In this document: one piece after another, positions 17,328-62,180 of the stretch | Layout: every line of letters begins with the position of its first letter | Numbering within the stretch: position 1 is the first letter of the stretch | From: Xestospongia muta | Lineage: Eukaryota; Porifera; Demospongiae; Haplosclerida; Petrosiidae | DNA length: 64,000 nt | Direction of reading: 5' to 3' | Assembly (NCBI GenBank): GCA_963693285.1 | Contig: OY848925.1 | Coordinates: 1,528,932 to 1,592,931, forward strand | Program-made: the position numbers and the translations under genes | Notes under the pieces: generated by a model | What the model was told of the DNA's origin: nothing | The model's input: the letters and a program-made list of their open reading frames with translations, nothing else | The model's database searches: none

Positions 17328-19911
<2,584 letters not shown>

Positions 19912-21173: not shown

Positions 21174-21199
21174 AGAACAGTTGTGATCAACCTACCAAG

Positions 21200-22205
21200 A
21201 TGACAGGAGAGAACACTACTATAGCAAGAATAAACGACAATACTAGTTTGAAATCAATTGAAGGAGAAACCCTAATTGACTCGAGAAGTGGATTACGACC
21301 ACAACAGACAGTGATCTATAGACTTGAACCAGAAATTGGGCAGTGGCAAGAAAAAGGAGATCAACAGTCAGTAGATCGGCCTCGAGAAGAAGAATGTAGA
21401 GCTAAGAGAGGAAAAGGAAAGAAAGAATGTAAAATCAGGGAGGAACAGGAAAAGATAGATAAGTTCATGGCAGCTATGGCTCAGCTAGCTCAAACTCAGC
21501 AACAGATGTTGCAGCAAAAAACATCACAAAGAACACGTGTAGACGTGGCCATCTATCAAGAGGTAAAGATATTGACAGTTTTTTTGAAACCTTTGAAGCT
21601 CTCATGCGGTTACATCGAATTTAATGGATGAGTTGGTGGCACATATGACACCTAAGCTTCAAGATTAAGTGAGAGATGTTAGTGCAGGCCTTACTTACAC
21701 AGAAATGTACACGGAAGTCAAGGAAGTATTATGGAAGGGGTTCAATGTAACTAAAGAAGGCAGCAGGAAGATCAAGTTTAACACCAAGATGACACCTAAA
21801 GAATATGTGGTACAAGCTATGAAACTGACACCCGACAAGAGAGAGGAACAGATGTGATAGAAAGTAACTATGGAACAAATGACTCAAGGAATGAATGAAG
21901 GAATGGAACAGTGGATTATCCAAGAACAGCCACAAGACCTGTACACAATGGCAGAATTAATGTAGGTGTACTTATTATCAGAGAAGACACATAAGAATCC
22001 ACCTACCAGACGAACCAAAATAGTTGATTCGAAGGAAGTGGGAACACTACTAGGAGTGGAGAGAGGAATCACTCGAAATGACAGTATAATTCAATACCTG
22101 GAAGAAATGAAGTCAAGAAGGAGAGATTGGCCGAAAGGGACTCTGGAAGGAATGTAACTTGGTACAAGTGTGGCAAGCTGGGGCACTACACTCGACAGTG
22201 TCGAG
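21200..22205 (+). pseudogene. gag region of the gypsy-like element
   Basis: The open part 21200-21631 encodes a charged, Gln-rich protein (QLAQTQQQMLQQK). Later pieces (21669-21857, 21966-22157) are in other frames, showing frameshifts. The zinc knuckle reads WYKCGKLGHYTRQC: the first cysteine of the CCHC motif is a Trp (TGG for TGT or TGC). RNA binding is therefore probably impaired. Confidence 0.7.
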
Positions 22206-22206
22206 A

Positions 22207-22549
22207 GAAGGCCCTTGTACAAGGGGGAGCTATGGACAAAGGAATTTATGCATACCAGTGTACTGGGACAGTGAATGATATTACTACTAACAGAATTCAG
22301 TTGGATACTGGCAGTACAAGGATATCAGTACACTCAAGGTTTGTGTCTGAAGCAATGAAGATGGGAGACTTCATAGAGCTCTGGAGTGCCAATGGACAGA
22401 GGACTAAGTATGCAGTGGCAAGAGTAAAGATTGTATTAGACGGGGAAGAGTACGATAGAGAGTTAGCAGTTGCAGCTGATCTACCTGAGGACATGTTACT
22501 TGGAGTGGATGTGCCTTTGGTGTGGCATATCCTACCACAACTTAGTTAA
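22207..22549 (+). pseudogene. Aspartic protease region of the gypsy-like element
   Basis: The frame contains IQLDTGSTRISVHSRF, the retroviral-type protease active site (DTG), followed by LPEDMLLGVDVP, typical of the C-terminal half of the domain. It ends at a stop at 22549. A short acidic linker reading frame (22635-22898) separates it from integrase. Confidence 0.75.
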
Positions 22550-22979
22550 GAGGATCACTAGGAAGACAAAACATTACAATCAACCATTGACAGCAGACTA
22601 GACAGTCTGATCAAATGGACCTCAAACGGAGCTGTTGGATTTGGGTCAGATGTATGCTGTGACTATAAGGACCCGAGCTCAAAGGCTAGCTCAAGAACAA
22701 ACAATTCAGCTGAGAAATTATACTGAGGAAGTGGAGACATACAGTGAAACTAAGGAATGTGATTCTCTTACATTTCAGGCAGAGCAAGAGGCAGACCACC
22801 TAAGCGAAGAAGAGGAAAAGGAATCAAGTGATTTGGCACAATTTTTTCCATTTATTGGAGATGTAATCACAGTACCTGAAAAACGCGCAAGAAAATGACC
22901 AATGAAGAAAAACAGACTCACAACAAACGTCATCTAAAGGAAGAAAAAAAGACAGCCACAGAGAAGCTCATCCAGAAAC

Positions 22980-24112
22980 AGCAGGCCGACCCAGAAGTAC
23001 AAAAGTGGAAGAAGAGAATGCAGAGCAAGTGATCAAGCATGAAGGACTGCTATTTCAACGATGGTATTCTAGAGACAGACCTGAAGAAGTATTTGATCAA
23101 GTAGTATTACCTCATTCCTACTGTTTAAATGTATTAACATTGGCACAATATGTGCATATGGCTGCTCATCTGAGACGGAAACGTACAGCCAAATGGATTC
23201 TGAAGTGGTTCTGATACCGATGCCAATAATAGACCAGCCATTTTGACGGATTGCTATGGACATAGTGGAACCATTGCCCAAGATTAGAAAGCAGAATCAG
23301 TACATCTTGGTAGTATGCAACTATGTGCTGAGGTACCTAGAGGCATTCCTACTATGGATATTTACAGCACTTACAGTAGCAGAGAAGTTGATCAAGTTGT
23401 TTGCTTACTATGGGATACTAAGGAAATCTTAACAGACCAAGGCACCAATTTTAATTCTCAACTTTTGCAGAAGCTTTACGAAATACTCGGAGTCAAAGCA
23501 ATCAATACAAGTCTGCACCATCTGCAGACAGATGGATTAGTTGAATGTTTCAACCAGACACTCAAGTCAATGCTTAAACAAGTGTTAGCTAGAGAAAGCC
23601 ATGACTAGGATCCAATGGTACCATATGTGCTATTTGCGTAGAGGGTAGTACTGCAAGAGTCAACAGCATTCTTGCCCTTTGAGCTAATTTACTCTAAAGA
23701 TGCAAAAGGACCTCTAAATGTGTGCTCAAGGAGAGTTGGAGTATTGATGAGAAGAAGATGAATAACATTCTCACATACATGATGAAAATCCGAAAAAGGA
23801 TAGAGCTAGCCAGCCAACTAGGTCATGAGAATTTGAGGATGATACAACAGAAACTCAAGGAGTGGTATGACAGGAAAGCCAGAGAATGGAGTTGAGAGAA
23901 AAAGATCAAGTGTTGGTAGTCCTTCTTGACAGCACGAAAAAGTTTCAGGCAAAATGGTAAGGACCGTACAAAGTCAACAAGAAGCTGGAAAATGTCAACT
24001 ATGAGATTGTGATGCCCGAAGAGGGAAGTGGCAAGGTTGTTCACATCAATCTGTTGAAGAAGTGGCATCAGAGGGAGACAGCGTATGCTAATGTAATTGA
24101 GGAAGCCCTGAG
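22980..24112 (+). pseudogene. Integrase region of the gypsy-like element
   Basis: An HHCC-like zinc-binding segment (FDQVVLPHSYCLNVLT..) is followed by core pieces with the three acidic positions visible in separate frames: MDIVEPLP, ILTDQGTNFNSQLL and LQTDGLVECFNQTLKSML. The C-terminal part (GPYKV..NYEIVMPEEG and VVHINLLKKWHQ) is also recognisable. Several stops and frameshifts interrupt it. The position before RT is the notable feature. Confidence 0.75.
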
Positions 24113-24129
24113 ATTGTAGATTACTGCTG

Positions 24130-25060
24130 GAAGGTAGGAGACTGTCTCCAAGTTGGGGATCAACTTGGAGCCAAACAACAAAACCAGCTTAGGGAACTGC
24201 TGGGACACTTCCCAAATGTCACTAAGAATCAACTGGGACAGACACATCTACTGACACACACTATACCCACAGGAACAGCACAACCTATCTGATTGAAACC
24301 CCATCTTATTCCAATACTCTATTGAGAGAAAGTTGAACAGTAACTACAAGAGATGGAGCGAGACAGCATCATAGAGAAGTCCTCCAACAAATGGGCTTCA
24401 GCTATTGTGATGGTAACCAAAAGGGACAGTGACCTGCGAATCTGTCTGGACTACAGAAGATTGAACCAAGTTATGATGTTTGATGCTTACCACATCCCAA
24501 AAGTAGATGAACTGTTAGATGCAATTGGAATAGCAGCATTTATAACCAACTTTGTTCTAGCGAAAGGCTACTGGCAGGTGCCCATGACAGACGAGGACAA
24601 AGCAAAGACAGCCTTTATCACACCTAACGAGTTATACCAGTTCACTGTGAAGGCTTTTGGGCTAAACGGACCACCTGCAATGTTACAGAGGTTGATAGAC
24701 ACAGTACTACAAGGGACAAAGAAATTCACTGGGGTGTACCTAGATGACAAAGTAATCTGTTGTAGCAACAGGGCGGAACACCTATACCACACTACAGAAG
24801 TGTTCCAACATATACAAGAAGTGGGGTTGACAGTCAAACTCAAGAATTGCACTTTTGGAGCACAGAAGTGTACCTTCCTGGGTCATAGGCTAGGAAGAGG
24901 AAGAATAAGGCCAAAAACCAGGAAAGTATTCGCAATCCATGAATGACTCTACCTCGTACCAAGAAAGATGTGAGGATCTTTCTGGAAATGACTGGCTACT
25001 ACAAACTGTTCATAAAGGATTACACTACCATAGCTGAACCTTTAACAGAACTGACCTGAA
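24130..25060 (+). pseudogene. Reverse transcriptase region of the gypsy-like element
   Basis: The longest intact part is 24353-24946. Recognisable blocks: EKSSNKWASAIVMVTKRD, LRICLDYRRLNQ, FVLAKGYWQVP, FGLNGPPAMLQRLID, GVYLDDKVICC, CTFLGHRLG, and after a stop RTKKDVRIFLEMTGYY. The catalytic YLDD is present, but the first catalytic Asp (normally xDLxxGYWQ) is Val. RNase H is missing because homology ends near 25088. Confidence 0.85.
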
Positions 25061-25088: not shown

Positions 25089-25147
25089 GAACAGAATAAA
25101 TAATAATAACAAATAAATTTTATTTGCTATTATTATTTATTCTGTTC
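25089..25147. repeat. Near-perfect 29-bp palindrome at the retroelement edge
   Basis: Arms 25089-25117 and 25119-25147 (starting GAACAGAATAAATAATAATA) are reverse complements with one mismatch and a single spacer base. It lies exactly between the truncated gypsy pol and the atlastin fragment. Confidence 0.85.
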
Positions 25148-25430
25148 TTACTATTATTAAAGTTTTCAAAGACCAACTTCTTGACAATTTGTGACAGCCA
25201 AGACAGAATGAGAGATTGCATCCCAAATAAATCAAAAATAATAAATAATATAAGGTCATGATTAATCCCAAAACAGCTGGCATCTCATATGCAATCACTA
25301 CATCCTTGCTTTCATTGCATTTAAGGAACTTCTCAAAAGATTCATCAATGACCATTGTAGTACTATAACTATAAATTATAACATATTTGTTCAAGATTGT
25401 TGGATTATTACATGATAACATGAAATAATA
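25148..25430 (-). pseudogene. Atlastin C-terminal membrane-region fragment
   Basis: On the - strand, IDESFEKFLKCNESKDVV..YEMPAVLG followed by hydrophobic residues aligns with IDESYENFVKHNESKHLM..YRTPAVLG of the copy at 58160-58565. Known atlastins have a similar helical segment before the membrane hairpin. The fragment is cut at the palindrome, and its tail is displaced to about 21068-21092, so the retroelement with its attached fragment sits inside this atlastin copy. Confidence 0.65.
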
Positions 25431-26046
25431 TAATTTATAAAAGGAATGGTGAATTCAACATAGTCAAAATATCTTGTAGTAAAGTAATTATTAGTACATA
25501 GAAATCACACACACACACACACACACATATATTCACATTAAACAACTTGAATTGTGTTAGTTTCTTATCAAAACTTCTTAATGAGTATAATAATATGATA
25601 TATTTTAATGATGTTCACTTGTAGGCAAATTCGATAGTATCATTTTTTCATACATTTATATACAGTTATATTTGCATCATATTATTTATACCAAATCTAA
25701 GCAATAGAATAAATATATAATATATAATGATCACAATTGGTATGTTAATTTGACAAAGGTGATATATAAAAGAATCAAGATGTTAAAGGACATGCACATA
25801 ATTTTTTTTATGACTATGAATGAGTCATCCACTAATAAACTGTGAATGAATGTGATTAAAATTAATGGTATTATGCTAGCTGAACCATGAAGTAGGCTTA
25901 AACACATTTCTCCATCATACGTGTATAGATAGGGTAGACAAAAAAATCTATATTTATGTGCCTGCTGACCATTGTACATAAGCTAAACAAATGTAGAGAT
26001 GTTTCACAAGACACATAATGCTTAAAGTAATATTAACTATTCCCAG
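25431..26046. other. Intergenic AT-rich region
   Basis: No gene recognised. It holds a (CA)n run at 25507-25528. A - strand frame at 25731-25979 has no recognisable domain. Confidence 0.45.
25507..25528. repeat. (CA)n microsatellite
   Basis: About ten CA dinucleotides in an intergenic region. Confidence 0.9.
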
Positions 26047-26529: not shown

Positions 26530-29263
26530 ATGGACCTCTCTTTAAAATTCTACCTTTTACTCTTTTCATTGGCAGGTATATCAGTTGAACTAGCTATGTT
26601 ATTATTATAACCTGCTGTTATCTCTATTTAATATAGGTGCTGTCACTAATAATCTATCTTGTGGTCCTAATGAAATCATTTATAATGATGAATGCAAAGT
26701 AAATACATGTTTACAAGACAAACCTTGTCAACATGGAGGAATATGTAGTATGGGATCTTCTCCTGATCAATACACCTGTGATTGTACAGGTACTGGATAT
26801 CAAGGAGTGAACTGTGAAGAAGGTATGAGTGTAATGGAGTCACATATACTGTTTGTAATGTATAATATTTTGTTAATAGATGTGAATGAATGTGAAACTG
26901 GAGATCACAACTGTGCCTATTATACTACCTGTGTAAACACTGAGGGTAGCTTCATATGTCAATTTCAAAAGGAAGTTATAAAAGATAGATTACGTAGGAG
27001 TAAGTGAATTATTTAACCTATTGAATTGTAGCATCTTTAATTGCTTGTGTGGTAGTCATACTTTTGTAACTCAAGTCAACTAAAGAGCTAAAACTATGGT
27101 TTTTGTAGTTTGTTGATTAATAGCTGATGCCACAAGCAAGAAATTGATACTGTTACAACTGAACATACCAGTAGTCACTCACATAACAAGCTCTTGTACA
27201 ACATCACAAGGTTGACTATATTGACATTCTCTGCAAATGCATACTTATCTCATAAGATCAAATACTTCTACAAAATTAATATTATTTTTGACAAATACAA
27301 TCAAAATAATCATGAAACAGATTGAAATAACATACTAATTTTTGCAGTGATTCAAGGAATTGTTCCCTTATTTCTATGTATTAGAAACAGACTTATACAT
27401 TAGCTGTTAGACCACAAGGCACTTCTTCTTATTTACATTGTCTTGGCTTTAGAAAGATTCTGTAAGAGCAGTGACAAGATGTAACCATTAACTATTGAGT
27501 TTACAATAAATAATACAATGAGTGATCGTGTTTATTTATATAGTCAATACTGATTGTTTTGGTACCTCTCACTCTTCAGCTACATGTAATAGTTTCAATT
27601 ATGAAATATAAATAATATGCCACATTTCCTTGTGTTAGTAACACACACATGGATACATTAACTGTTAGATAATGAGACAACTCTTCTTTATTACATAGTT
27701 TTGATTATGTGAAGAATTCTGTAAGAGTAGTGACAAGATGTATAAGTTAATTAATGAATTTATAAAAAATAACACAATGAATGATCATATTTATTTGTAC
27801 AGTTATTGGTCCTCCTCCTCCTCTTCAACCATGTGGTGGTACCTGTCACTCTAATGCTTCATGTCTGTCTAACACATGTGTATGTAATTCAGGATTTACT
27901 GGAAATGGAACATTTTGTGAAGGTAAGTGAGTTATCAGGTCATTATTGGACACACTTACTAATATTTAACAATATATATTGTCCATCTGTTAATATAAAA
28001 TGTTATCTTAGATATAATTTTAGATATCAATGATCGTGACATTTATATACATGACTGTAATTTAAACATTAGCACTCGTATGAACAAAATTGGTAGCAGT
28101 AGTTGTTAATGTAGGTTTCCGGAAATCCATGTAGTGATTGATGTCATATATTTAAACAATTATACATTACCTTTATATATATGTTTGTGTGTACAGAGAT
28201 ATATGCACTTACTTTAACCTACTATTTACTATGTCTACTAAATATTTTCAAAATAAAGAGGATAAATTACGTAATTTTAGGTAAAATGTACATGGTACTT
28301 AATTGTAATTATCTTTTATCTTCTATTAACTATACAATGAAAATCCATTCTAAGTTGCTACAAGGCCAAAACTAGTGTAATTTAATATGCATAAAGCCAA
28401 CTATAGTTGTATCTACAACCACATTGCTTTTACAACCACTTTGCTATAGTAATTGATCATGGCTTCAATTGAAGCTATAAGCATATATTATTTCAACTAT
28501 ACTATCCAGTTAGTTAAGTTGAAATAGTATCTACCTCTCCCTCATAGTTTCAATTGTTGGACAAAGAGCACTTTTTGGTTCCTAGTTGACTTTATACATA
28601 TTGAATTAAGATCAGTTTTGGCTATATGGTAACTCATTAGTAGGCTTACATTATATTGATGAGATTATAGCAATGAAGACAATGGTTGAAATGACAAAAT
28701 GCTATTTTAAGTGTACATGAAGTCCTCAATGTTGACAAACTCTACTATTTTTCTGTTATACTGAACATTTTACAACATTCTTCACAATATCTATTTATAG
28801 ATATCAATGAATGTAACACTGGAAGCCATGATTGTCATCAAAATGCTACCTGTATGAACAATGTAGGTAGCTTTACATGTCAATGTAATACAGGATTTAT
28901 AGGAAATGGAACATCATGTGCTGGTTAGTTATTCAATAGTTATGATCATATATACTAACAAGAATTGTAATAATAGAATTGTGTCTTAGTATATCCTTTA
29001 ATAAACTAAGATGCAGTTATTGTACAGTAATATAGCATATATGGCTAGTTTTATAGCTTGTGCCTTTGTCTTATGTCAGCATTCTTTGGTATGAGGAGGG
29101 TTTGTACATGTGACATTTGTCATATTTATAATACATTATGAGTCATGGATTGTTCACTTCTGTAGTTGATTGCTATGAGGATTGCAAAAGGAAGTTACTT
29201 GCTATAGTCTGTCATGATATGATGAAGAGAGGAGAAAGACTTCCAATGCCATGTAACACATGA
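26530..29263 (+). CDS. G5: secreted EGF-cbEGF family member
   Basis: Exons 26530-26575, 26637-26822, 26880-26999, 27803-27922, 28801-28923 and 29166-29263 total 693 nt (230 residues). The order is signal peptide (MDLSLKFYLLLFSLAG), EGF, half-cbEGF ending DRLRR, a proline-rich-start EGF (IIGPPPPLQPCGGTCHSN), cbEGF ([18 protein letters not shown]) and the four-cysteine tail (VDCYEDCKRKLLAIVCHDM...PCNT). A broken extra EGF exon at 27544-27600 and a decayed cbEGF exon at about 28024-28110 lie in its introns and are skipped in this model. Exon 4 is almost identical to that of G2, pointing to exchange between paralogs. Confidence 0.78.
27544..27600 (+). pseudogene. Truncated EGF exon in G5
   Basis: After an acceptor (TTTATATAG) the sequence TCAATACTGATTGTTTTGGT... 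matches exon 4 of G7 (44817) but stops in mid-exon at AGTTTCAATT. From there the sequence switches to the intron that precedes exon 4 of G2 (about 10440 onwards). This is a recombination breakpoint inside an exon. Confidence 0.7.
28024..28110 (+). pseudogene. Decayed cbEGF exon in G5
   Basis: ATATCAATGATCGTGACATT... followed by GGTAGCAGTAGTTGT is a cbEGF-like exon with lost cysteines and a stop (TTGTTAATG). Equivalent decayed exons occur in G6 (41117-41240), G7 (45018-45140) and G8 (55129-55256). Confidence 0.6.
28338..28708. repeat. Foldback element copy in a G5 intron
   Basis: It carries the same internal palindrome and right end (GTTGAAATGACAAAATGCTATTT) as the element at 82-523, with the left arm shortened. 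It lies between exons 4 and 5 of G5. Confidence 0.55.
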
Positions 29264-30549: not shown

Positions 30550-31185
30550 TAACAACAATACTTAGTGTGACAACACTAGTGATTCTTATGATAATTAAAT
30601 AAAATATTAAGTCTGAGTTTTCTAATCTGATTGTCAGCTCTATTTCAAAAGTATTTCAATATATTTTAAATCATTATGTTTTCATGGCTTGTAATAAAAT
30701 TATGTCAAAGTCAAAAATAGAGGACTTCTCTAGTACTAAATATCCAATAACTCTAAAACCAAACCTCTAACATAACGTTGCAAGACATGTATTATTAAAG
30801 ATATCTTGTACCTCAAATAGTCAAAGATAAAATCCTTCTAAAGTGGCGTTTCATAATATTAGCTGGCGAGGCAGCAAAAGTTTTCGAAGCCACAACTTTT
30901 TTTAATTTCCTGAAACATATGTGTTTATCATTACAAATCATCCGCTTATTTATTACATTCAAGCTGTAACAAGAATATTTACTAAAGCTGATGAGTATTG
31001 AGTGCATATATATAGAGTATATGTTAGAAGCTGTAGTGGTCACATACAAATTCATGCATGGGAATATGTGTGGGTATGAGCAATTGAAATCACAGATTTA
31101 TTATTTGTCTGCCACTTTCTAGAGTTAAGAATGATGCATACTATTAAATTTGAGACTCAGAGCTACTCTATCAAATTTAGGACTG

Positions 31186-31223
<38 letters not shown>

Positions 31224-31472: not shown

Positions 31473-34400
31473 TCATTTTCTCAGGAATTTACCAAATTCT
31501 TCTGCCAGTTCTGGCTGTTGTAAATGGGATTTTAACATTTCTTGTATCCACTGTCCAATACTATAAGGAGTATATATTCCAACTTGCTGTAAAGATTGAC
31601 GACCCTCATCAGAATTCATTGGAGAATATTCAGTTTGTAACAGAGAGCATAAGTGAATGTTGCACAACATATTGTCAGAATATTTACCCCCAACAATTTT
31701 CTGAAATAATCAGAATTAATGCTAGCAATTATTTTTTATTACTATACCTCTAACTCTTGCTTTACAAGGTACTGAATTTCTGGCAACTTATCAGGTTGAC
31801 ATACAGGAATGGAGTCCTTAAAGTTGTCTTCATATAATCTATCAGCATGTGTCAGACAAACTAGAACAGGTATAGATGCAAACTCTTTCTCAAAATGATG
31901 CATCCAATCACCAGCGGATTTTGTATGAAACCTCCTATATAAAGTTGAAAATACTGACAATATTACAAGAATTAACTGTACTAGGCCATAATGCTGCCAT
32001 ATGTACATAATTATATCTATACAGTGAATATAGACATAAATAGTGTGTGAAATGATGGTATTATACATACCAATTATTAAATGTACACTTACAACCAAGG
32101 ATTGAGTGTCAATCCAACAGTAACATATTCTATATACATGATACACTGCTCCTATTAATCAGCAAAATTCATAATATAACTCACTCATAGCTGCAGAGAA
32201 ATATCACTATTTGAGCTAAACCAACTAAAATGGCAGCCAATTCAGGTATTGACTCATCTCTATCATCAACGCCAGGAAAGTCTATTATGCTGAATCCTTG
32301 AATAGCTTCTTCCATGTTGTAAATCAAAGGTACAGTAGTCCTAGCAGCCTGTGTTGTACCAGCTACTGCCTACATTAATGTAATGAATCAAGAAAAGTTA
32401 AAGAATTATGTACCCTTTTTTTAAAAAGCTTTTGAACAAGTGTTGACTTTCCAGAGTTGACTAAACCAATGATGCCAATTGTAGTGTAACTGGCTAAACC
32501 TTCTCTCAGACGATGAATATTCAATGCCCATATCAACCAACGTGCTAGTAATGGACGGTGAGTCTCTGGCACTAAAGAAAGTGCTGTGTCTTTAAATTTG
32601 TTGTCCCAATGTCTGATGACAGATTCAACTTTTGAAGAAGTGTTAATTTTAAGTTTCTTACACAAACCAACTAATTCTCTTTCAAGTGAATAACTAATGT
32701 AGTGACTGCTACAAGTTACAGTTTTCTCCATTCCTTGTATTAGAAACTGAAGTTTTCCAGCATAATTCATATCTTGCATAAGATCAAGTGGTTGGTCTTT
32801 TTTTTGGTTGAAGATGCCTTGGATGTATTTAGCAATTTGGACAACCAATGACTGATTTTTAGATGTCGATAGAATTTTTAGAATATCTTCATTATTGAGG
32901 GCAAACAAAGCCCATACACCAACTGCTTCTGTGCCATGTGAAGCTGTAAGGGCAAGTGCTGTGTCAAAGGGATTATCTACTAGAGGTACACGAATCTGCT
33001 GCTCCATAAACCCACCAAGCATGGCAACACAAGGCTCTAAATTATTTTCAATCATGCTGTTAACACAACGTAGCATTTGGCTGTTGTGAATGGAAGAACT
33101 ACCAATATCAGATTTTTGTTGCACAGCCAAGGAGCGAAGAGTATTTCTTGCGACTCTTAAAATATCAGGCAAAGGAGCAAATACATTAATTTGTTTGGTA
33201 TTTTTGGGTTGTTCTAAAGCTTTTGATATTGGATAAACTTCACCAATATTCCTTCCACTCACAAGATTTATATTTTGCCTTTTTGCTATTTGTGCATCTG
33301 ACTTCTCAAGTAGTTGTTTGTGTATCTCATTAAACATTCGAGCATCAAATGCTATTTTCGAAGGAAATATTTCCTCAAGTTTACTACTAGGCTGCTTTTG
33401 GTATTGCATTGTGGCTTGTATACTTGCAGTAGCCTCAGAATATGATCTCTGATCCAGCTGTGTGACATGACGTGAAGGCTGCAATAATGGAGGCTGCATG
33501 AACCATTGCTGCCTCATAGCTATAGTAGACAATCTAAATGCAGCTTGAGCACAACCTTCAACTATCAGGACAGAAACAGGTATTCGAGAAGGTAAAATGT
33601 TCTGGATTAAGGCATCAGCACATTTTAATGCAGTAACTTCAGATAAGCAATTAGCAATAGCAAAAAAAATGCTTTCCATAGGTACTATTCGAGCAGCCTC
33701 TTGAAGGAACTTCAAAATAAATTGATAGCGTTTAGATGGACGAGAACCAACATCATCTGGAGCTGGTTGCTCAAGCAAAGCACTGAGAAATGCTAGCTTT
33801 ATTATCTGACTAGGAGTTTGCTTTGCTAATTGACTTTGACGAAATGATATTGGATCAATATACTAAAAAAAGAAAAATCTATATTGTTAAACTAGCCATT
33901 AATCAGAATATTTACAAAAAACTACATACAAAGAAAATCAATTTGTTTTTTTCTTTTAGTTATTATTAATATCCAGTGGCAAATTACAAAGATCAGAAAA
34001 AAAGCTCAACCAATATGATCAATCTATTCCTCAATTTCAGTTGGTCTGCTGACGTGTACATTGTATAAGTGTAATTTTTAAAAGAACCTTCTTTAAATTG
34101 AGTTGTATTGATTTTTCTTTATCTTACATGTATCTACACAGTGTTACATTAAGGAAGATTGGCCACTGGACAGCAAAGTTTTAAGTTGTCAGCTCATTCT
34201 ATAACAACTAAGCTTATATGAAACATACAATAAATATCTGGCAACAGAAAGTTTTCAGAAAGTATAATGGTGGCAAGCTGACCAAACTTTGGCTGTTTGT
34301 AATGAAGGTCACATCATCAAAAAGAATACAGGACAGATACAGCAACAATATATTTTTTTCCAAAATGGACATACCAATGTGGGTATATTAAGATCACCTT

Positions 34401-37400
34401 GCATTCTTTGTGTGGCAGTTAAAATAAAGATGGTTATAATGAACTAACCTTTAACAATGCAATGACACGCTTCCGAATGGAAGCAGAAAATTGGCTGTTG
34501 ATAGTAATACTTGTGGCTAGCTCTTTTAAATGTCTGGCACCATGTTTAAATAGATCAGACTGTTCATCCAAAATGTGAATGCATTCTATTTGCTTTTGAG
34601 CAATGTTATTAGCTGTTATTTCAATTTCTATCAACTCTGAAACATTTTCAAAATCAATTCTAATTGTGTCACTAAACCAAAGATGATCTCCCTTAATAAC
34701 AATGGCTAACTCCTTTCCATGTGGGTGGACATGAACAAAAAGCTCTACATCAGAAATAGATGGTTTCAAAGACTTGATTTCTGATACCGAGTTTGGAGGT
34801 TGGGTTGAAGGAATTTCAAATGGTGGATCTTTATCTAGATACCCACGAAGAACTTTGTGTCGATAAATAGCCATGCTGTGCTATATGTAAAAGACAACTT
34901 TAAAATAATATTAAATAAATGAATATATATAATACATATACTGACTCAAATGGCATCCATAGATATTTATATTGCAGTTAATTTATTAACATTAGTGGTA
35001 TTTAAGTTAGAGTTCCTGTAGACAAGAATATACTACACAATATAGTGATCATTGCATGGTGGATATTCCTATCTAGCTAGACTTACTGGAAAGACAGTTA
35101 GCATAACAGCTATCAAAAGTATTAAATAAATGAAAAGCTTACTTTAACAAATATTTCAGGGGGAGAGAGCAATATTACACTCTGAAAATATTAGAGTGGG
35201 CAACATACTATATACTACATACATCTACCAAACAAATTGCTGTTTGACTTTTTTTTGCTTTTGTTTATGCATACTATAATAGACTCATATACAATTAAAC
35301 AATTGAAATATTAAATTTGTTAAGAGGGGGAACAAAAGCTTCCCAAGGGGAGGGGGAGACAAATGTCTCTCTCCCATACCTAAATGAAATCCTAATAAAT
35401 ACATTACCTGTGCAAAAAGCTCTAAAGTCAAATTCTCAATATTTTTCACACCCATGTAAATAAGTTCTTGTTCAGGGTCGTAGAGTTTGGAACAAATTAA
35501 TCCTTGATAATCACTTTGACTGATCATATATGTGCTTCCAGTATGAACACCAATCTCTGCTTGATTCCAATCCATCTTCAAAGAGTCCTTCAAAATGTCC
35601 TTCAATCGAGAGAGTGAGTTGTTCCTTTCCTTTTGATCAGCACTCTGAGCATTAAAGTAGTTAAAATTAAAAAAATATATATATTTCATTTTGTTACCTG
35701 GACTTTCAGCAGACAGTGCAACAATAAATTTGGCCATGATCTTTCTGAAAGCTGTATAATTAAAAAAGCAGACAAATAAAAATAAGTAATACAAAAAATA
35801 CCATATTTCTTGGATTAAATAACCCAGAATTTAAACAATGTAGGTATTTATTCAGGTAGACATCTAGATACATACAATATGTTAACTGTTACTTTGTCAC
35901 TTTTTGGACTTTAAATGTCCCTTTATATAAAATTATTTGATTTTTATGTGTAGAATACAATAGTGAAAACACTTATTATTCACTTATTCACGAAGGTTTG
36001 GTATGCCCATGAATTATAAGATAATTTGAGTCAGTTGCTGTGAACATAGTCATCATATTAGAATGTATCCAACACAAGCACTGTGAATGAATGATTACTC
36101 TTACAGAAAATCATTTTTCTCCATACTATTGATATTGACTTAGCTTGAATTCAAAAAAATTGCATAAAATAATTTATTTTAAGATTGCTTTCATTTGAGG
36201 TTCTAAACAAAATCAAAATTATAAGTTACTCTAAGGTTACAGCAGTGAAAGAGGACTCATGTCTTATATACTAAAAGCTCCAGGATCACTTTACACTATG
36301 AGTCAATGCTCATGATAAAGGCAAAATGAAATTCTACAAGATTAAGGCATGTGTTGACATCAACATACATAGTTGACGTTTCTCTGAAAGTCATGTATAA
36401 TAATAGATTAAGAAGATGTGAAATAACTATAATGGACATACATGCATGTGGCATACACAGACAGTCAAAAGAGTCTTAAGATTGCCTAGGCTCTCTCTAT
36501 ATATGTACCGTACATGTATATGTGATTAAGTCACACTTAGGAATGCTATAATTGCTTTACCAGAACCCAAAACCATAGGCATTCAGGAACTTGTGATTAA
36601 TTGTGTATACACGAAAATGCTACTCAATGTTTAACAATGCAAGAACATGAGAAAGTAAAGAACAAAAGAATTCAAATTCTTCTGAATTATGACAAGCTAA
36701 AAAATCTACACTGTGACTGCACTTATCAACATTATAACCCATAGTCATGTAATCAAGACATTCTGTATCCAAGTATGCATATTCCTAGCTTAGTATACAA
36801 ATTTCAACAAGTTAACATACCTTGTCACCAACAACAACCTTTGCAAAAATGCTAACTTCAAGAAATCGAAGTAGTTTAGGAATATGATCATCCTTAAGGT
36901 AGAAAGAATGGAATGACTGAAGAATCTTTGGACATTCTTTCACAGTTTCTTGCACCAACTTGATAGGGGTGAGAGGAACTCCAAACATTATGCAAGTGAC
37001 ATTTGTAAGTAGACTTTGTGTGCTAACTAATGGTAAATTCCACAATTTAGCTGTAATATAACTGGCAAGAAGACCACCAAATGAGAAACCTAAATGAATA
37101 AATGGACTGACTAGAAGCATAAAAATACAATTACATACATCTATAGGTATGTCTGTGGCCATAACATATTAACTACTCAAAATCATTGATTTATATAAGG
37201 TGTTATTAGCCCCAATAAATTGGCTTAGAAACGATCACAAAAGGTAATGGTTATAGGATTCAGAACTCATTATTGTAGTTACCATATCTAATTTATATGT
37301 GTTACAGACAATCCATAATGACACTACTGGACATGACTCACCAGTAAAAACTAGTCTCTTTCCCTGTCGAAGCAATTCAAAAAAGTATCTAAGAGGAATA

Positions 37401-38588
37401 GATTCTGTCTGATTATCTAAACCTAATAATGCAGAAAAGTGATATCTCATTAAATGATGTATTTCACACCTTCAAGTACTGAGGAGTACTCAAGCCACTT
37501 TTCGATACAACTTTCTCCTTCAAAAGCAATATAGAAAATATCACCTGTAATTGCTATAAACATCTTTTGTTTCCCTGACTTTGAAAGGGACATTTCTGAG
37601 AATGCATGGCTTTCAACATTAAGTATGTCATCGTGTCTCCCAGATGAATAAGTAGAAGCAACAAAGGCACATAATGAGGCATGATAGACTGTACTCTTAG
37701 AGAATAGGGGAGGGAGGTCAGCAGTAGGACTGTCTGATTTAGGAAGTGTTGGAGGGGAACTTTTTGTGACCTCTACCATTTGCTGAGTCTCATCAAGTTT
37801 TTTATAACACCAGTCTGTAATGTCTTCTGGAATCAAAGCATCTCGATTTAGCTCAATCAAATGTTGTCGAACAATTTCTGGCTTAACTCCTTCCTCTAGT
37901 GATTTTTCAATGTGTTCTTTGATACGAGATTTCACTAGGTTCAATGTTGCATCAGAATCTATGCCAGATTTATCTAAATCTCCAGAATACACACGAAGTG
38001 CTATTATCAGTGATTTCAATCGTGAATCTTCTTCTTTTTGGTGATCAGTCTCATTTCTGTCATCATCTATAAATGAATAAATAAGATATCTTACAATTAC
38101 TTGTGACTTTTGAGGACATTCAAGGTGCACACATTGTTTTCAGTATTTACATGCGTGAAATGATATCCAATAAGCATATACTTGTTATACAGTAAAACTT
38201 CAAAAACAGTAAGAGCTTCTATCATTTTTTTAAGTGTATGATTTTCATATGTTTTCACTTTTTTGACCTTTTATGATATTTTTTCCTTCTTTCTTGACAG
38301 CTGGAACATCATTTTGAGCTGTATAAGTAAAACATGTGGTGATTATCATTACAAAATCATCAGATTATTTATTACATTCAAGCTGTAACAAGAATATTTA
38401 CTAAAGCTGAAGAGTATTGAGTGCATATATATAGAATATATGCTAGAAGCTGTAGTGGTCACATACAAATTCATGCATGGGAATATGTGTGGTTATGAGC
38501 AATTGATTATTTTCTTTGCTGCTTTCTAGAGTTAAAAATGATACATAATATTATACATGGGAATCAGAACTACCCTATCAAATTTAGT

Positions 38589-38626
<38 letters not shown>

Positions 38627-39869
38627 TGTAAAAGATTGGATTATTTAACCAATCTATGGTCATTTTCGTTGCATAATTATAATACCTGATGAGATAACTG
38701 AGAAGTTTTAATAAACATGACTCTTTTCTCATTACTAATATACATGAGAAGTTATTTAGTTGATTATCAGAGTTATAAGATTCTGTATAACATCTCGTTA
38801 GACAATAGTCACCTTAATATGTATGGTATATTTCCTTCTTATATGTTTGCACTATAGTAACAAGGAAGGGTAAGGTATATGTTGCTTCTCTTAATAAGGA
38901 GATCTGTTGTTTACTTCTGATTACACCATTACCAATACTAATGTCAGGGCAACTGTAGTATATTATTATTTAAAACAGATTGGTGTTTATTACTTATCAG
39001 TATATCATTATATACTACTTGCAACAAAAACAACAATGGATCAGTTAAATAAACAATCTCTACTAATCTATATGTTATTACAGTGATAAGACAAAGTACA
39101 GGCATTGGAACTGGCAAGTGGCAACTATATAGCTACTCCTAATTTAAATCTGACAGAACCATACAAGCCCTCCTTCCTAAAACAGTGATTACAATTAATC
39201 ATCTTATTTGATAAGGGAGAGTGAATAACACACTATAATATCATATTTATCACCTATTTATAGAGTTTGTATAATGTACATAGGGTGTCTGTGTGATGTA
39301 TACTAACCTAATACAACTCAATAGCTTTTACTATTGCTTACTAAAGTCAATAGTATGTTATTATGTGCTAAGAATAACATTAACTGGCAGGCTCATATAG
39401 TTGGTCAAATTTATAAGCTCTCCAAGCCAATGTTCATGTCTCAATTTCATTGTTGACCATTGGCTCACTCCATTACTTGAATGTGTAATGTATTTTTACA
39501 CATCATATAGTCTTTCCATACCCTAAAGGTTCTCATGAACTCACTAATTTTGGTCTTACCATGATATTCTTCTTTCATTTTATCTACCACTTTATTAAGA
39601 GGTATGTGACTATGCAACACATCTAATACATCAAGAAACTCTTTCTCTCTGTCTTTATCGTCGAAAACGGAGCAAAAGTATGCCTCTATAGCTCTCAATA
39701 GAAAATCAGCATCTTTTGATGGATCAGGACTAACGAGTTTAGCCTTAGTGTTGGTGTCGATAATATTTTTCTCATAGAGTTGATTTGCAACAATCGATGG
39801 ATGTAACATAGTCCGCTGTAGATGAGAATAATACTTCTTGATAAGGACACATTCTCTGAAGGAAGCCAT
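31473..39869 (-). CDS. CARD-like / class-3 lipase / P-loop GTPase multidomain protein
   Basis: Exons, 5' to 3' on the - strand: 39869-39560, 38066-37470, 37422-37342, 37089-36821, 35751-35698, 35644-35408, 34880-34449, 33862-32414, 32369-32185, 31934-31748, 31700-31473. The sum is 4029 nt (1342 residues) with every intron GT-AG and in phase. Residues 1-~103 look like a CARD-type death fold (MASFRECVLIKKYYSHL..). Residues ~270-420 match a class-3 lipase: GDIFYIAFEGE, nucleophile elbow GFSFGG (Ser332), FGVPLTP, then KDDHIPKLL with the likely Asp. I could not place the catalytic His. Residues ~517-1110 are unrecognised and largely helical. The C-terminus is a GTPase: G1 GLVNSGKST (1126-1134), G3 DFPG (1173-1176), G4-like THAD (1233-1236). 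An intracellular immune or death-signalling role is inferred from architecture only. The least certain join is exon 1 to exon 2, across a 1.5-kb intron. Confidence 0.72.
38067..39559 (-). other. Intron 1 of the CARD-lipase-GTPase gene
   Basis: This 1.5-kb intron contains the duplicated block found at 30660-31250 and 47570-50380, including CACATACAAATTCATGCATG, a (TA)n run (38591-38623) and ACAATAGTCACCTTAATATGTATGG, which at 50341 directly precedes an atlastin exon. No atlastin exon is found here. The intron thus contains a stray segmental copy. Confidence 0.55.
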
Positions 39870-43851: not shown

Positions 43852-45721
43852 ATGGACCTCTCTTTTAAATTCTGCCTCTTACTCTTTGCATTGGCAGGTA
43901 TGTCAGTTGAACTAGCTATGTTATTATTATAACCTGCTGTTATCTCTATTTAATATAGGTGCTGTCACTAATAATCTATCTTGTGGTCCTAATGAAATCA
44001 TTTATAATGATGAATGCAAAGTAAGTACATGTTTACAAGACAAACCTTGTCAACATGGAGGAATATGTAGTATGGGATCTTCTCCTGATCAATACACCTG
44101 TGATTGTACAGGTACTGGATATCAAGGAGTGAACTGTGAAGAAGGTATAAGTGTAATGGAGTCACATGTACTGTTTGTGATGTATAATATTTTGTTAATA
44201 GATGTGAATGAATGTGAAACTGGAGATCACAACTGTGCCTATTATACTACCTGTGTAAACACTGAGGGTACCTTCATATGTCAATTTCAGGAGAAAGTTA
44301 TAAAAGACAGATATCGTAGGAGTAAGTGAGTTATTCAATCTATTGAATTGTAGCATCTTTAATTGCATGTGTGGTAGTCATACTATTGTACCTCAAGTCA
44401 ACTTAAAAGGTAAACTAGTCTTTGTAGTTTATTGCTTACTAGGTAAAGCCACAAAAAAAAAATTGATACCGTTACAATTGCAACTGAACATACTAGTATG
44501 TAATTACTCACATAACAAGGTCTAGTACAATGTCACAAGGGTGACTATATAAGGTTAATATTATCTGCAAATACATACTCATCTCATAAGATCAAATACT
44601 TCTGCAAAATACAATCTAAAGTGATTCAAGGAATTGTTCCCTCATTCCATGTATTAGTAACAAACTGATACATTAGCTGTTAGACCATAAGGCAGTTCTT
44701 CTTGTTTACATAGTCTTGTCTTTATAAAGATTCTGTAGGAGTAGTGACAAGATGTAAGCATTATCTAATGAATGTACAATAAATAACACAATGAGTGATT
44801 ATGTTTATTTGTATAGTCAATTTTGATTGTTTTGGTGCCTGTCACACTTTTGCTACATGTAATAGTTTCAACAGATGTGTGTGTAATCTGGGATTTACTG
44901 GAAATGGAACATTTTGTGAAGGTAAGTCAGTTATCTGGTCATTATCACACTTGCTAATATTTAACAATATATTGTTAACCTATTAATATGAAATATTATT
45001 TTCTAATAATTTTAAATATCAATGAATGTGAAATTGGGACAAAAAGGCTGTAATTTAAATACTAGCACATATATATGAACACAATTGGTAGCAGTAGTTG
45101 TCAATGTCTGTCATGATGCTCAGGAAATCAATGTAGTGATTAATGTCATATATTTAAACAATTACACATTACCTTTATAGATATGTTCGTGTGTACAGAG
45201 ATATATGCACTTACTTTAAGCCTACTATTCACTATGTCTACTAAATATTTTCGAAATAATGAGGATAAATTATGTAATTTTAGGTAAAATGTACATGATA
45301 CTTAATTGTAACTATCTTCTATTAACTATATATGCAGTCCTCAATATTGACAAAACTCTAGTATTTACTGTTATATAAAACATCTTATGACATTCTTTAC
45401 ATTTTCCTTTTTTTAGACATCAATGAATGTGACACTGGAAGCTACAGTTGTCATCAAAATGCTTTCTGTGTGAACAATGCAGGCAGCTTTATATGTGAAT
45501 GTAATCCAGGATTTATAGGAAATGGAATAACATCATGTGCAGGTTAGAGTCCTCAATATTGACATAAATCTAGTATGTCATGTTCATAATACATTTTAAC
45601 TCATGGATTGTTCACTTTTGTAGTTGATTGCTATGGGAATTGCAAAAGGAGGTTACTTGCTATAGCCTGTCATGATATAGAGAAGAGAGGAGAAACTCTT
45701 CCACTGCCATGTAAAACATGA
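43852..45721 (+). CDS. G7: secreted EGF-cbEGF family member
   Basis: Exons 43852-43897, 43959-44144, 44202-44321, 44817-44921, 45417-45542 and 45624-45721 total 681 nt (226 residues). The signal peptide is [16 protein letters not shown]. It is followed by the EGF, a half-cbEGF ending DRYRR (still R-x-R-R), a short EGF-like exon (CFGACHTFATCNSFNRCVC), a cbEGF one residue longer than usual (NGITSCAG) and the tail ([24 protein letters not shown]). A decayed cbEGF exon at about 45018-45140 is skipped. This is the most compact intact copy. Confidence 0.8.
45018..45140 (+). pseudogene. Decayed cbEGF exon in G7
   Basis: ATATCAATGAATGTGAAATTGGGAC... retains the start of a cbEGF, but frameshifts (AAAAAGGCTG, ACATATATATG) and a TGA (TCATGATGC) break it. 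Confidence 0.65.
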
Positions 45722-47484: not shown

Positions 47485-48043
47485 CTAAAGTAACGACAAT
47501 ACTGTGACAAGACTAGTGATACTTATTATAATAAAATATGAAGTCTTACTTTTAACCTAATTGTCAACTCAATTTCAAAAATATTTTAATATGTTTTAAA
47601 TCATTCCGTTTTTATGGTTTGTAATAAAATTACTTCAAAGTCAAAAATAGAGGACTGCTTTAGTACTAAGCATCCAGTAACTTTAAAACCACACCTTCAA
47701 CATAAGGTTTCAAAGACATGTATTATTAAAGACATGAAAAGAGATCTTGTATCTCAAATTATCAAGGATAAAGTCCTTCTAAAATGGTGTTTCATAATAT
47801 TAGCTTGTGAGGCAGCAAAAGTTTGCAAAGTCACAACACTTGTTAAAGATCCTGCAACATATATATAAGGTTATCATTACAAAATCATCAGAAGATTATT
47901 TATTACATTCGAGCTGTAACAAGAATATTTACTAAAGCTGAAGAGTATTGAGTGCATTTAGAATATATGCTAGAAGCTGTAGTGGTCACATACAAATTCA
48001 TGCATGGGAATATGTGTGAGTATGAGCAATTGAAGTCACAGGC
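47485..48043. other. Atlastin-intron-like duplicated block, left side
   Basis: Parallels 30545-31090. A frame at 47614-47868 is shared in part with 30700-30900 but shows no known domain. The block is interrupted by the Kolobok-like element and resumes at 50012. Confidence 0.5.
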
Positions 48044-50493: not shown

Positions 50494-50883
50494 CTAGTAC
50501 AAATAGAAGTGACACATTTTCAAATTTGCTATAGAAGTTGTCTAGACTCAACACACAAGACATTGATCTATAAATAATAGAGTTATTATTGTACTGGTTG
50601 TTTAGTAAAATGTCCATACAATCTGTTAATTGACATTAAAGCTGGTCAATGTTAGTCAATGTTAATCAATGTTAGTCAAGGTCTGTTAGCTACTAATTTG
50701 CTACAGAAAACAAGTACTCTAGGTAACTTGGTCCACAACAACCAGATAAAAAATTACAGTAATAAGAGAACTGATGGTGAAATAAATGCTCAGTAGAGAC
50801 ACTATTTGAAAAGACAGTCAAGAATGTAATGTGAAAATGGCAGGTGAGGAGAGAAGAAAATCAGCAATCTCTTATTTAGAAAA
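50494..50883. other. Spacer
   Basis: No gene seen. It contains a short imperfect repeat of GTTAGTCAATGTTAATCAAT around 50648-50680. Confidence 0.4.
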
Positions 50884-51045
50884 TCAGCATTTTTTGATGG
50901 ATCAGTACTAACAAGTTTATTCTTTGGGTTGGTGTTGAAAATATTTTCTCAAAGAGTTTATTTGCAACAATCAATGGATGTAACATAGTCCACTGTAGAT
51001 AAGAATGATACTTTTTGATAAGGACACATTCTCTGAAGGCAGCCA
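50884..51045 (-). pseudogene. Broken CARD exon copy 1
   Basis: From an ATG at 51045 the - strand reads MAAFRECVLIKK-like residues with a frame disturbance, then LHPLIVAN.., ending near the AspPro..Lys region that corresponds to residue ~55 of the CARD-lipase-GTPase protein. The remainder of the exon is missing. Confidence 0.6.
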
Positions 51046-51164
51046 TAATACATCCCTATATCTAGAAGTCTTTTCAGTGATGTCTGTCATACATACGTCT
51101 AACCTAAGGGTGTGACTAAATGATATTCTATTCATTTTGCAACTACGGAAAATAGCTCTCAATT

Positions 51165-51335
51165 GAAAATAAGCATCTTTTGATGGATCATGACCGACGA
51201 ATTTAGCTTTAATGTTAATATCAATAATGTTCTTCTCGTAGTGTTGATTTGCAACAATCAATGGATGGAGCATAGCCTGCAGTAGGTGAGAATAATACTT
51301 CTTGATGATAAGGACACATTCTCTAAAGGAAGCCA
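51165..51335 (-). pseudogene. Broken CARD exon copy 2
   Basis: From an ATG at 51335: MASFRECVLIIKKYYSHLLQ, then AMLHPLIVANQHYEKNIIDI and DPSKDAYFQLRAI, after which homology to the CARD exon ends. It lies in tandem with copy 1, 290 bp apart. No lipase or GTPase exon follows, so it is a solo duplicated first exon. Confidence 0.65.
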
Positions 51336-51345
51336 TAACACACAC

Positions 51346-52778: not shown

Positions 52779-55700
52779 ATGGACCTCTCTTTTAAATTCT
52801 GCCTCTTACTCTTTGCATTGGCAGGTATGTCAGTTGAACTAGCTATGTTATTATTATAACCTGCTGCTATCTCTATTTAATATAGGTGCTGTCACTAATA
52901 ATCTATCTTGTGCTCCTAATGAAATCATTTATAATGATGAATGCAAAGTAAGTACATGTTTACAAGACAAACCTTGTCAACATGGAGGAATATGTAGTAT
53001 GGGATCTTCTCCTGATCAATACACCTGTGATTGTACAGGTACTGGATATCAAGGAGTGAACTGTGAAGAAGGTATGAGTGTAATGGAGTCACATATACTG
53101 TTTGTGATGTATAATATTTTGTTAATAGATGTGAATGAATGTGAAACTGGAGATCACAACTGTGCCTATTATACTACCTGTGTAAACACTGAGGGTAGCT
53201 TCATATGTGAATTTCAGGAAGAAGTTATAAAAGATAGATTACGTAGGAGTAAGTGAATTATTTAACCTATTGAACCTTTATCATGTTTAGTAGCCACATT
53301 AAAAAAGGTTGACAACTAATTAAGTTATTGGTTTACATAACTAAAAATGACTAACTACACAAACATGCACAATTAGAAGCATTGTTTGCTTTCAAGTGAG
53401 TAATGCTTAGAAATAATTAAATGAACTTTCAACACATATTAACAAAAACCAGAATGTCAACTTCCATAATGTACATTCCCATGATGTTGTAATGCTAACT
53501 TCCAAAATGTCAATTTCCTGGTACATGCATTCTTTAGACTATTGTATCATTTTTTGGTCTATGTAGTATGTCTTACTAAAATCATCAAGAATATTGCATG
53601 CTCTTAATATTTTATTTTAAACTTGTTTCTGTAAGTATAAATAGCCTGATGCTATCTTTCTAATATATATATCATTTTTATACTCAACCTTTCTACTAAA
53701 CCACCCAACTTTAGAACATCAAGATCCAGTAACTCGGTCCAGTTACATTGGGTAATGTATATGTTCTCCCATGTTGGTACACATTTTGGGAGTTGAAATT
53801 ATAGGAATAGGCACTACAGACCTTATCAAATAGTATTTAAATTTTATTCAATGAACTTTCCTTATCTATTACTTTACTTCAGCTGATCTCATGGAAAATT
53901 GATTTCACGGAATTTTGACCTCATATTAATCCTATTATATATATATAGCTATTACTTCTATTTATAACAAGATGTTTACAAAATTGCCAAGTTGATTATG
54001 TTAGCGAGCAAGGATGTACAAGCCTTTATATGTGATAATAAAAGAATTTACTTGGTCTCATGTAAACTTAGACCAATGTAATTAATTATAGGAACAAAAT
54101 GTCTCATTTTAAGAGGTCATAATTAAATATAAGAAATACTAATTCAATGACTTCCCTCCTTTCATGTTCAGTTCACTTACCATTAGTAAAACCTTTCTTC
54201 TCCTTGATAAAAACATACCAGGATGTTAGCTGACTTCATAATTGATGCAACATAATGTTTATGAAAAGTATAACTGAAGTCAACTAAAAAACAAAGTAAT
54301 CATTGTAGTTTGTTGTTCACTGAAGCCATGAGGAAGACATGGATGCTATTTCAGATGAACATACCAGTAGTACTTTTTAAATGAGCATACAAGTAGTCAG
54401 TCACATAACAAGCTCTAGTACAACATCACAAGGTTGACTATATTGATAAACTCTCCAAATTGTATACTTAGTTCATAGGATAAAGTACTTAAGTAAAATT
54501 AATAATTTATTTGTCAAATGTAATCTAAATCTTTCAACAGCTAGGTAGAAATAACACATTAACTTTTACAGTAATGCATAGAATCACTTCATGATCATAA
54601 GGATATGGTACAAAAAATGAGAGTGTGTGCTTTTTAAGATTTAAAAAGTTAATGTGTCAACCTGTACACTAACCATATGATTGCTAAGAAAATATTTGTC
54701 ATAACTTTAATGTGTAAATATACTATATAAATAGTATGCCTCATTTCCTTGTGTTAGTAACACATCATACATTAGCTGTTAGATCATAAGACATCTCTTA
54801 TTTATTACATAATTTTGGTTATGTAAAGATTCTGTAAGAGTAATGACAAGATGTATAAGTTAATTAACAAATTTACAATAAATGACGCAATTAATCATCG
54901 TGCTTATTTATGTAGGCACTGCTAAATGTAATGACACTTGTCACTCTAATGTTATATGTCATAACATTAATGGTACCAGCACATGTGTATGTAATCCAGG
55001 ATTTACTCGAAATGGAACAATTTGTGAAGGTAAGTGAATTATCTGGTCATTATTGGACACACGTACTAATATTTAACAATATATTGTCCACCTGTTAATA
55101 TGAAATGTTATCTTAGATGTAATTTTAGATATCAATGAATGTGACGTTGGGACACACGACTATAATTTAAATACTATAGCACATGTATGAACACAATTGG
55201 TAGCAGTGTTTGTCAATGTCTGTCAGGATTTTCCAGAAATCCATGTAGTGGTTAGAGTCATATATTCAAACAATTATGCATTACTTTAGGTATACTTTTG
55301 TGTGTACAGTGATATATGCACTTAATATAACATGTAAAAAGGGATCAATCTATTCCTTTAAGAATTTATTTATAAAAATTTTATCAAATATCTCTCGTAT
55401 TCACTTCAGTTCAACTGACCATCAATGGATTAATTCCTCACACAATATCTGCTCTAGTTCCTGCGGTCCCTAATGGATACACTATTACTCCACCTAATCC
55501 TAACATCACATTAACTTCATCTGGAGATTTAATGACTACGATATTAGATTATAGTGATGCTGGTACCTATACTATCACATCTCCTGATTTTAATGGAACT
55601 AGTGTTGTAATTACACTGACTGTACAAGGTTAGTTTTGTATGTTCAAAATGTGTTATAATCCCTCTATCAGGAAAAGCATATGTTATTGATATTACTAGT

Positions 55701-58047: not shown

Positions 58048-58795
58048 TGTTCCCAAATTACTGCTGAGTTGTCAATGATTTGTCCAATTTCCCTCAAATG
58101 TCCACTATATTGTGCGGTGGCCCGGTAGGTCGGGCCTATCTTAGTTTAAGGTTTAAGGTTTAGGGTTTAGGACCAACGCGACCTACTGGGCCTCCACAAT
58201 ATCGTACATAGATCCATATAGTAACTAATAGTAATGGCAAATATAACCCTAAGACCGCCGTCTGAGAGAGAGATTGGATCCCAAACAAATTTAGTATAAT
58301 AGATAATACATAAGATAGGACCATGATAAATCCTAGAACAGCTGGCGTCCGATACGCATTCATTAAGTGCTTGCTTTCATTGTGTTTAACAAAGTTCTCA
58401 TAAGATTCATCAATCATCATTTCAAGTCTTTTCATATATTCAGAACTGAATATGTCCTCGCCCATTTGGGATATTAAAAACTGCTCCAAACTTGCCATTC
58501 TAATTGCTTCATGTTCCTTTTGGAGTTTCTCAGGAGCTAAGTAGGGTTTGTCAGCTCCACATAACTAAAGAAGCAAGCAAAAAATCATTACATGTGTACA
58601 TCAGAGTACAATCTTAATATTTATTACTATACAATTAAAAGTGTTACTGTACCATACTGCACAAAGTATAATAACACTTAATCATAAGCAGACGCTTGAG
58701 TTGCAAGGTTATTAGCTTCAGCTGTTGCTTGTAACATTGACTTGGGTTCAGGTAGTTTATGACTCTCAAAGATCTTGATATAAGTCTAAAGTAAC
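58048..58795 (-). pseudogene. Atlastin copy C (C-terminal part, MITE-interrupted)
   Basis: Read on the - strand: an exon from 58795 ([35 protein letters not shown]), whose 3' end is deleted, then an exon from 58565 (LCGADKPYLAPEKLQKEHEA ... MGEDIFSSEYMKRLE ... two hydrophobic segments ... IWIYVRY). A 96-bp foldback element splits the last codons; the tail resumes at 58106 as SGHLREIGQIIDNSAVIWEH with a donor after it. The blocks match the middle domain, membrane hairpin and C-terminal tail of atlastins. It is the best-preserved atlastin C-terminus here, but still dead. Confidence 0.8.
58107..58202. mobile_element. 96-bp GC-rich foldback MITE with telomere-like core
   Basis: The ends ATATTGTGCGGTGGCCCGGTAGGTCG and, inverted, ATATTGTGGAGGCCCAGTAGGTCG form imperfect terminal inverted repeats. 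The interior holds TTTAAGGTTTAAGGTTTAGGGTTTAGG. Removing it leaves CGATATAGTGG, which restores the atlastin reading frame (Arg-Tyr-Ser-Gly), so the duplicated target is TAT, ATAT or TA. Confidence 0.75.
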
Positions 58796-62075: not shown

Positions 62076-62089
62076 TTTATTCTGATTGA

Positions 62090-62178: not shown

Positions 62179-62180
62179 AT

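Follow-up and report, generated by a model that had tools for sequence, protein, structure and literature searches.

What kind of protein is encoded by a gene in which a caspase-recruitment domain (CARD), a lipase and a GTPase seem to follow each other, and is it one gene or several? The question is raised by positions 31473..39869 of a 64,000-nucleotide stretch of the genome of the sponge Xestospongia muta (contig OY848925.1, positions 1,528,932 to 1,592,931; hereafter the window), for which a sequence-only reading had proposed a single gene with a CARD-like N-terminus, a class-3 lipase and a P-loop GTPase. Computation showed the anatomy of the encoded protein, a CARD fold in exon 1, a hydrolase fold in a relative, a Ser-Asp-His triad, the GTPase motifs and a domain order that recurs elsewhere in the genome. 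Together, a CARD, an EDS1/PAD4-like lipase and a GTP switch in one protein point, as far as sequence can tell, to a type of immune or cell-death signalling protein that has not been described.

The gene was rebuilt from the DNA and the in-phase model was reproduced: 11 exons on the minus strand give 1342 codons and a stop with no internal stop, and all ten introns are bounded by GT-AG. The motifs GFSFGG (Ser332), KDDHIPKLL (aligned Asp, D397), GLVNSGKST, DFPG and THAD named before were all recovered. Two boundaries had to be redrawn. The lipase, thought to end at residue 420, reaches about residue 530 and takes in a strand at Gly473 and His517, and the start of the region of about 600 residues described as unrecognised is predicted to be a beta-sandwich (about residues 557-660, from the model of the Amphimedon relative P0005). 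The exons are as follows.

39560..39869, minus: exon 1, residues 1-103, predicted CARD
37470..38066, minus: exon 2, residues 104-302, linker helices followed by the lipase start (about residue 222, 37713), placed by alignment with Amphimedon and Halichondria relatives
37342..37422, minus: exon 3, lipase segment before the nucleophile elbow
36821..37089, minus: exon 4, lipase with GFSFGG (Ser332, 37082-37084) and KDDHIP (Asp397, 36887-36889), by triad alignment, with the Lipase_3 score at or just under its cut-off
35698..35751, minus: exon 5, lipase insert
35408..35644, minus: exon 6, lipase GSTYMIS strand (Gly473), aligned with the GTY segment of rice EDS1
34449..34880, minus: exon 7, His517 (34878-34880), lipase end and beta-sandwich (about 557-660) with a GDHLWF motif, by triad alignment and strands in the P0005 model
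32414..33862, minus: exon 8, residues 661-1143, a helical stretch followed by the GTPase G1 motif GLVNSGKS (32444-32467)
32185..32369, minus: exon 9, GTPase G3 motif DFPG (32271-32282)
31748..31934, minus: exon 10, GTPase G4 motif THAD (31841-31852)
31473..31700, minus: exon 11, last part of the GTPase, with the stop codon

A protein search with the full-length sequence (7993 candidates scored) found five proteins at E<=0.001, three records from Amphimedon queenslandica and two from Halichondria panicea, with 33-42% identity; four cover 89-98% of the length and P0005 covers 57%. Of the Amphimedon proteins, one aligns over 92% at 42% identity (E 1.4e-278) and another over 98% at 38% identity (E 7.8e-257); the two Halichondria proteins align over 89% at 33% identity (E about 1e-189). 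This alignment along the length confirmed that the predicted architecture is more than chance. Relatives occur in Amphimedon and Halichondria, and what is at hand is a family, not a single protein. When only the last 383 residues served as the query, 24 proteins were found, these five among them, a count that contains duplicate records of apparent single genes (P0002/P0005 and P0006/P0017). Ephydatia muelleri and Geodia barretti were added as named species, and most others are metagenome or ENA contigs; every relative with a species name comes from a sponge. Uncharacterised sponge members are Amphimedon LOC109581262, LOC109586129 and LOC109582702, Halichondria LOC135334540 and LOC135340244, and Ephydatia EMCRGX_G017011.

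The join between exons 1 and 2 (39560/38066) decides whether the CARD belongs to the chain. It is supported indirectly, by relatives and by the order of units in the genome. The 1838 residues of P0008, encoded on a contig of 5731 bases, combine CARD-like, lipase, GTPase and ZU5 parts, and the 1436 residues of P0014 are encoded on a contig of 4553 bases; since the window gene has ten introns and these contigs leave almost no room for any, they are most simply explained as cDNA. Amphimedon P0001 and P0002 have a CARD-like stretch within the same chain. A tblastn search of the same genome located further copies at two places.

C15:695-755 kb: tandem array (L027-L033), found with the window model
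C1:622-631 kb: second subtype (L034) with CARD, lipase, GTPase, a ZU5-like part and a later segment matching P0008, in this order

A CARD-like exon lies upstream on the same strand in each unit that holds the next exon (9/9 on C15, 1/1 on C1), and in the C15 units it ends at residue 102-103. An additional fragment on C1 (10.42 Mb) contains the GTPase part only. A model with separate genes was rejected on the strength of the CARD-lipase-GTPase order that recurs in the genome units and in P0008. The death fold, specifically a CARD, the class-3 lipase and the GTPase therefore appear to sit within one gene, as had been proposed. Exon 1, with some of the sequence ahead of it, is also present as degenerate, incomplete copies on the minus strand at 50850-51336 and 62088-62180, 11 and 22 kb upstream of the gene.

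The window gene thus belongs, judged by similarity, to a family that occurs in several sponges and forms a tandem array in this genome. The array has nine units, five full ones (CARD-lipase-GTPase) alternating with four truncated ones (the CARD and at most part of the lipase) that could be separate short genes, and it holds a 19.4 kb duplication of 99.1% identity, which may be young or partly an effect of assembly. In a tree of region 1001-1267 the C15 array groups with Amphimedon P0001/P0002 to the exclusion of the window gene (support 100/98), and the C1 locus groups with P0007, P0008, P0011 and P0012 (98/94); by these placements, this genome contains three or more coexisting lineages of the family. 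Compared with four of the five full C15 units, the ratio of replacement to silent changes (pN/pS) was 0.34-0.59 in each of four gene parts, of which only the direction, constraint, is usable because silent sites are saturated or nearly so.

The model of exon 1 is a six-helix bundle with a kinked first helix that matches solved CARDs, and the predicted fold is a CARD. Pfam CARD was found at E<=1 in 4/9 N-terminal pieces (best 9.3e-7); the best whole relative was P0008 with 23.1 bits vs a cut-off of 23.9. Pfam Death (cut-off 22.6) was found ahead of the CARD-like part in Amphimedon P0001 (22.7 bits) and P0005 (25.2 bits). Stretches that look death-domain-like by eye lie at the N-terminus of P0003, P0004 and P0020 and at the C-terminus of P0007, P0008 and P0011, and a profile of these and the two Amphimedon Death domains matched FADD (E 2.4e-5), a designed protein (0.008) and ankyrin/PIDD (at least 0.1). 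The Halichondria N-termini are death-domain-like by eye and profile, with neither a Pfam Death match nor a CARD-like stretch, and those of P0016 and P0018 fit neither fold by eye. ZU5 exceeded its cut-off in P0008 (22 vs 21 bits) and stayed slightly below it in P0012. The Pfam scans covered the relatives apart from P0009, P0010, P0011 and P0019; row set A2 comprised the window protein and eight pieces picked by eye, A7 eight pieces picked by eye. When the N-terminal parts of the Amphimedon and Halichondria proteins were compared with the window by tblastn, no upstream Death domain was found at E<=1.

Lipase_3 (cut-off 22 bits) scored 20.1 with the whole window protein and 22.0 with the domain piece, and was above the cut-off in many relatives, including P0003, P0004 and P0008 (33.0). 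Alignment gives a putative catalytic triad of S332, D397 and H517. Where a letter is present, Ser is kept in 16/19, Asp in 18/19 and His in 16/20 relatives, and all three in 11/17; in the same-genome paralogs the three are kept in 9/9, 6/6 and 5/5 aligned places, near-identical duplicates included. The model of P0005 shows a hydrolase fold: strand 545-551 runs directly into helix 552-566 and Ser552 lies at the turn, a predicted nucleophile elbow, and the strands after the lipase form a beta-sandwich. The mean predicted local distance difference test (pLDDT) of this model is 52.8, with block means of 64-92 (461-620), 44-74 (621-690) and 61-88 (701-800). Since the model is poor outside lipase and beta-sandwich, Foldseek with the whole chain was noisy (first match, a mannanase). 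A protein search with the lipase alignment gave 13 matches, all short (240-366 amino acids), and the 11 inspected look by eye like pieces of the same family, so this search does not show where the lipase belongs among lipases in general; plant EDS1 was absent from the matches, which may only reflect the word-sharing limit. Row set A3 held 15 of the 24 family proteins without the window protein (mostly fragments omitted), A6 the window protein and nine of the 24. The control lipases were open frames at two of the six Lipase_3 places found in the genome (L003/L004 resemble L001 by eye, L005/L006 are short). A prokaryotic origin was rejected in a narrow search: one elbow pattern in 84,980 species genomes gave 154 pattern matches and no relative by tblastn.

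The GTPase is, by its motifs and score, of the TRAFAC Era/EngB-like (MMR_HSR1) type. MMR_HSR1 (cut-off 21.9 bits) scored 37.7 in the window protein, with G1, G3 and G4 motifs present, and 33.1 in P0008; P0018 matched EngB at 1.2e-5. The P-loop is kept in 23/23 and DFPG in 20/20 relatives with letters there. Dynamin_N reached 17.4 bits in the window protein, below its cut-off of 27, and 34.3 in the relative P0020.

Other elements of the window were classed by eye.

8523-8939, 11802-12215, 17392-17829, 26594-27007, 43916-44329 and 52843-53256, plus: near-identical EGF-type coding segments
30909-31218, 38330-38623 and 47850-48041: dispersed repeat resembling a miniature inverted-repeat transposable element, copies about 87% identical
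21176-24946: pieces of a Ty3/gypsy-type retroelement
59600-60019, plus, and 60735-60971, minus: endonuclease and reverse transcriptase pieces of the long interspersed nuclear element type
58160-58564 and 25137-25454, minus: two open frames like the C-terminal membrane part of atlastin

Sequence of the EGF-type repeats starts 112 bases ahead of the window gene's start codon, on the opposite strand. Copies of the dispersed repeat sit in intron 1 and immediately downstream of the gene.

What does the protein do? We favour, with a probability of about 0.5, a GTP-gated signalling protein of the cytoplasm with an immune or cell-death output, one of a family of sponge proteins built from a CARD (or death domain), an EDS1-like class-3 lipase, a beta-sandwich, a helical region and an Era/EngB-type GTPase. 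Assembly, through contacts between CARDs or death domains, would be controlled by the GTPase as a switch. In the active protein the CARDs would gather and recruit partners by CARD-CARD contact; the gathered lipase domains might next set free a lipid product or take up a ligand, serving as effector or ligand-sensing surface, and the outcome would be an immune or cell-death response. We infer the immune role and the order of events from the companions (CARD, Death, ZU5), the EDS1-like lipase and the tandem turnover. Several observations weigh against this reading. Pfam CARD gave no match to the window exon alone at E<=1, Foldseek with the CARD model was weak (best E 0.44), the top match of the CARD profile (two rows) was FAM32A, taken as chance, and the death-fold parts of P0005 (1-280) were modelled helical at low confidence (block means 22-54). 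Triad residues are lost in relatives (Ser in 3/19, Asp in 1/19, His in 4/20), and plant EDS1 proteins are reported to lack enzymatic activity despite Ser-Asp-His (PMC8813719).

The last two points lead to the main rival, that the hydrolase domain is not an enzyme but a scaffold or ligand-binding surface for the assembly of partners, as in EDS1/PAD4/SAG101. The closest solved relatives are just these proteins, at least one triad residue is changed in 6/17 relatives and Amphimedon P0001 aligns none of the three; but the triad is complete in the window protein, in 11/17 relatives and at every aligned place of the same-genome paralogs, and we consider a pseudo-lipase a possible but less probable solution. 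Lipase_3 enzymes usually act on lipids, and together with the relation of the GTPase to Era/EngB and the Dynamin_N scores this would fit an enzyme of lipid metabolism or membrane traffic, which the GTPase positions on membranes and the CARD only oligomerises, without an immune role. This is unlikely, since CARD, Death and ZU5 domains recur as companions in the family and the copies are in tandem and apparently recently duplicated. The degenerate exon 1 copies upstream (50.85-51.34 and 62.1 kb) could be taken as a sign that the gene model is an artefact, a separate CARD gene lying upstream of a lipase-GTPase gene, or that the window copy is a pseudogene; but GT-AG at all introns, 1342 open codons, the same order in 10/10 units holding the next exon, a 5.7 kb contig that encodes all parts of P0008, and fewer replacement than silent changes in all four parts (pN/pS 0.34-0.59, with silent sites at or near saturation) make this very improbable.

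How does the proposed signalling protein compare with known systems? That no protein with this order is described held in so far as no description was found, but the sequences are already public as uncharacterised proteins. The architecture was not found in titles and abstract starts among the literature matches listed, and with most subscription papers outside this scope its absence in print is unproven. Of two papers on neighbouring topics, one gives gene counts for CARD, DEATH and NACHT in the sponge Dysidea avara (PMC12909245) and the other deals with death-like domains, GTPases and expansions in sponges (PMC8195603); in the main text the former does not contain the word lipase, nor the latter lipase or EDS1. 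VLIG/URGCP and dynamin-like inducible GTPases share a weak G-domain similarity (URGCP_GTPase 18.5 bits in P0006, Dynamin_N 17.4 in the window protein), but both scores are below the cut-offs (55 and 27), whereas the window protein passes MMR_HSR1. Apaf-1, NOD1, NLRC4 and CARD8 contain a nucleotide-dependent domain and, like the window protein, combine it with an N-terminal CARD in one protein; the sponge protein, however, has a GTPase as its proposed switch and contains a lipase as well, and NACHT, NB-ARC and LRR were absent from the seven Pfam families found at E<=10 in the window protein, which sets it apart from NLR/STAND proteins. Amphimedon P0001/P0005 differ from the window protein by an extra N-terminal Death domain.

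For the lipase, the fungal NLR proteins invoked by the sequence-only reading are a poorer parallel than plant EDS1/PAD4/SAG101. Its closest solved relatives are EDS1-family proteins by sequence and, narrowly, by fold, and an EDS1-type N-terminal lipase-like domain is present: nucleophile elbow and Asp segment are shared, and in the alignment with rice EDS1 also the following GTY segment. Unlike the plant proteins, the sponge chain adds a CARD or death domain and a GTPase and has a beta-sandwich after the lipase. The EP domain, for which Pfam holds a model, gave no match; the EDS1 alignments were confined to the lipase domain, no EDS1-named Pfam family matched, and the helical region of P0005 is poorly predicted. 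EDS1 is reported only from seed plants (PMC8813719, PMC9153377). It is conceivable, though rather doubtful, that sponge and plant lipases share one immune-type ancestor, by ancient origin or gene transfer, so that the EDS1-type hub would not be an invention of seed plants and, wired in sponges to death-fold adaptors and a GTPase, would be an animal counterpart of the EDS1 node. If the favoured reading of the protein is right, sponges would have a nucleotide-switched death-fold system other than NLR, and a lipase resembling EDS1, a central node of plant immunity, would sit inside animal proteins with caspase-recruitment and death domains. Where the EDS1 lipase came from, and whether CARD signalling in early animals had lipid hydrolysis among its outputs, become directly testable questions.
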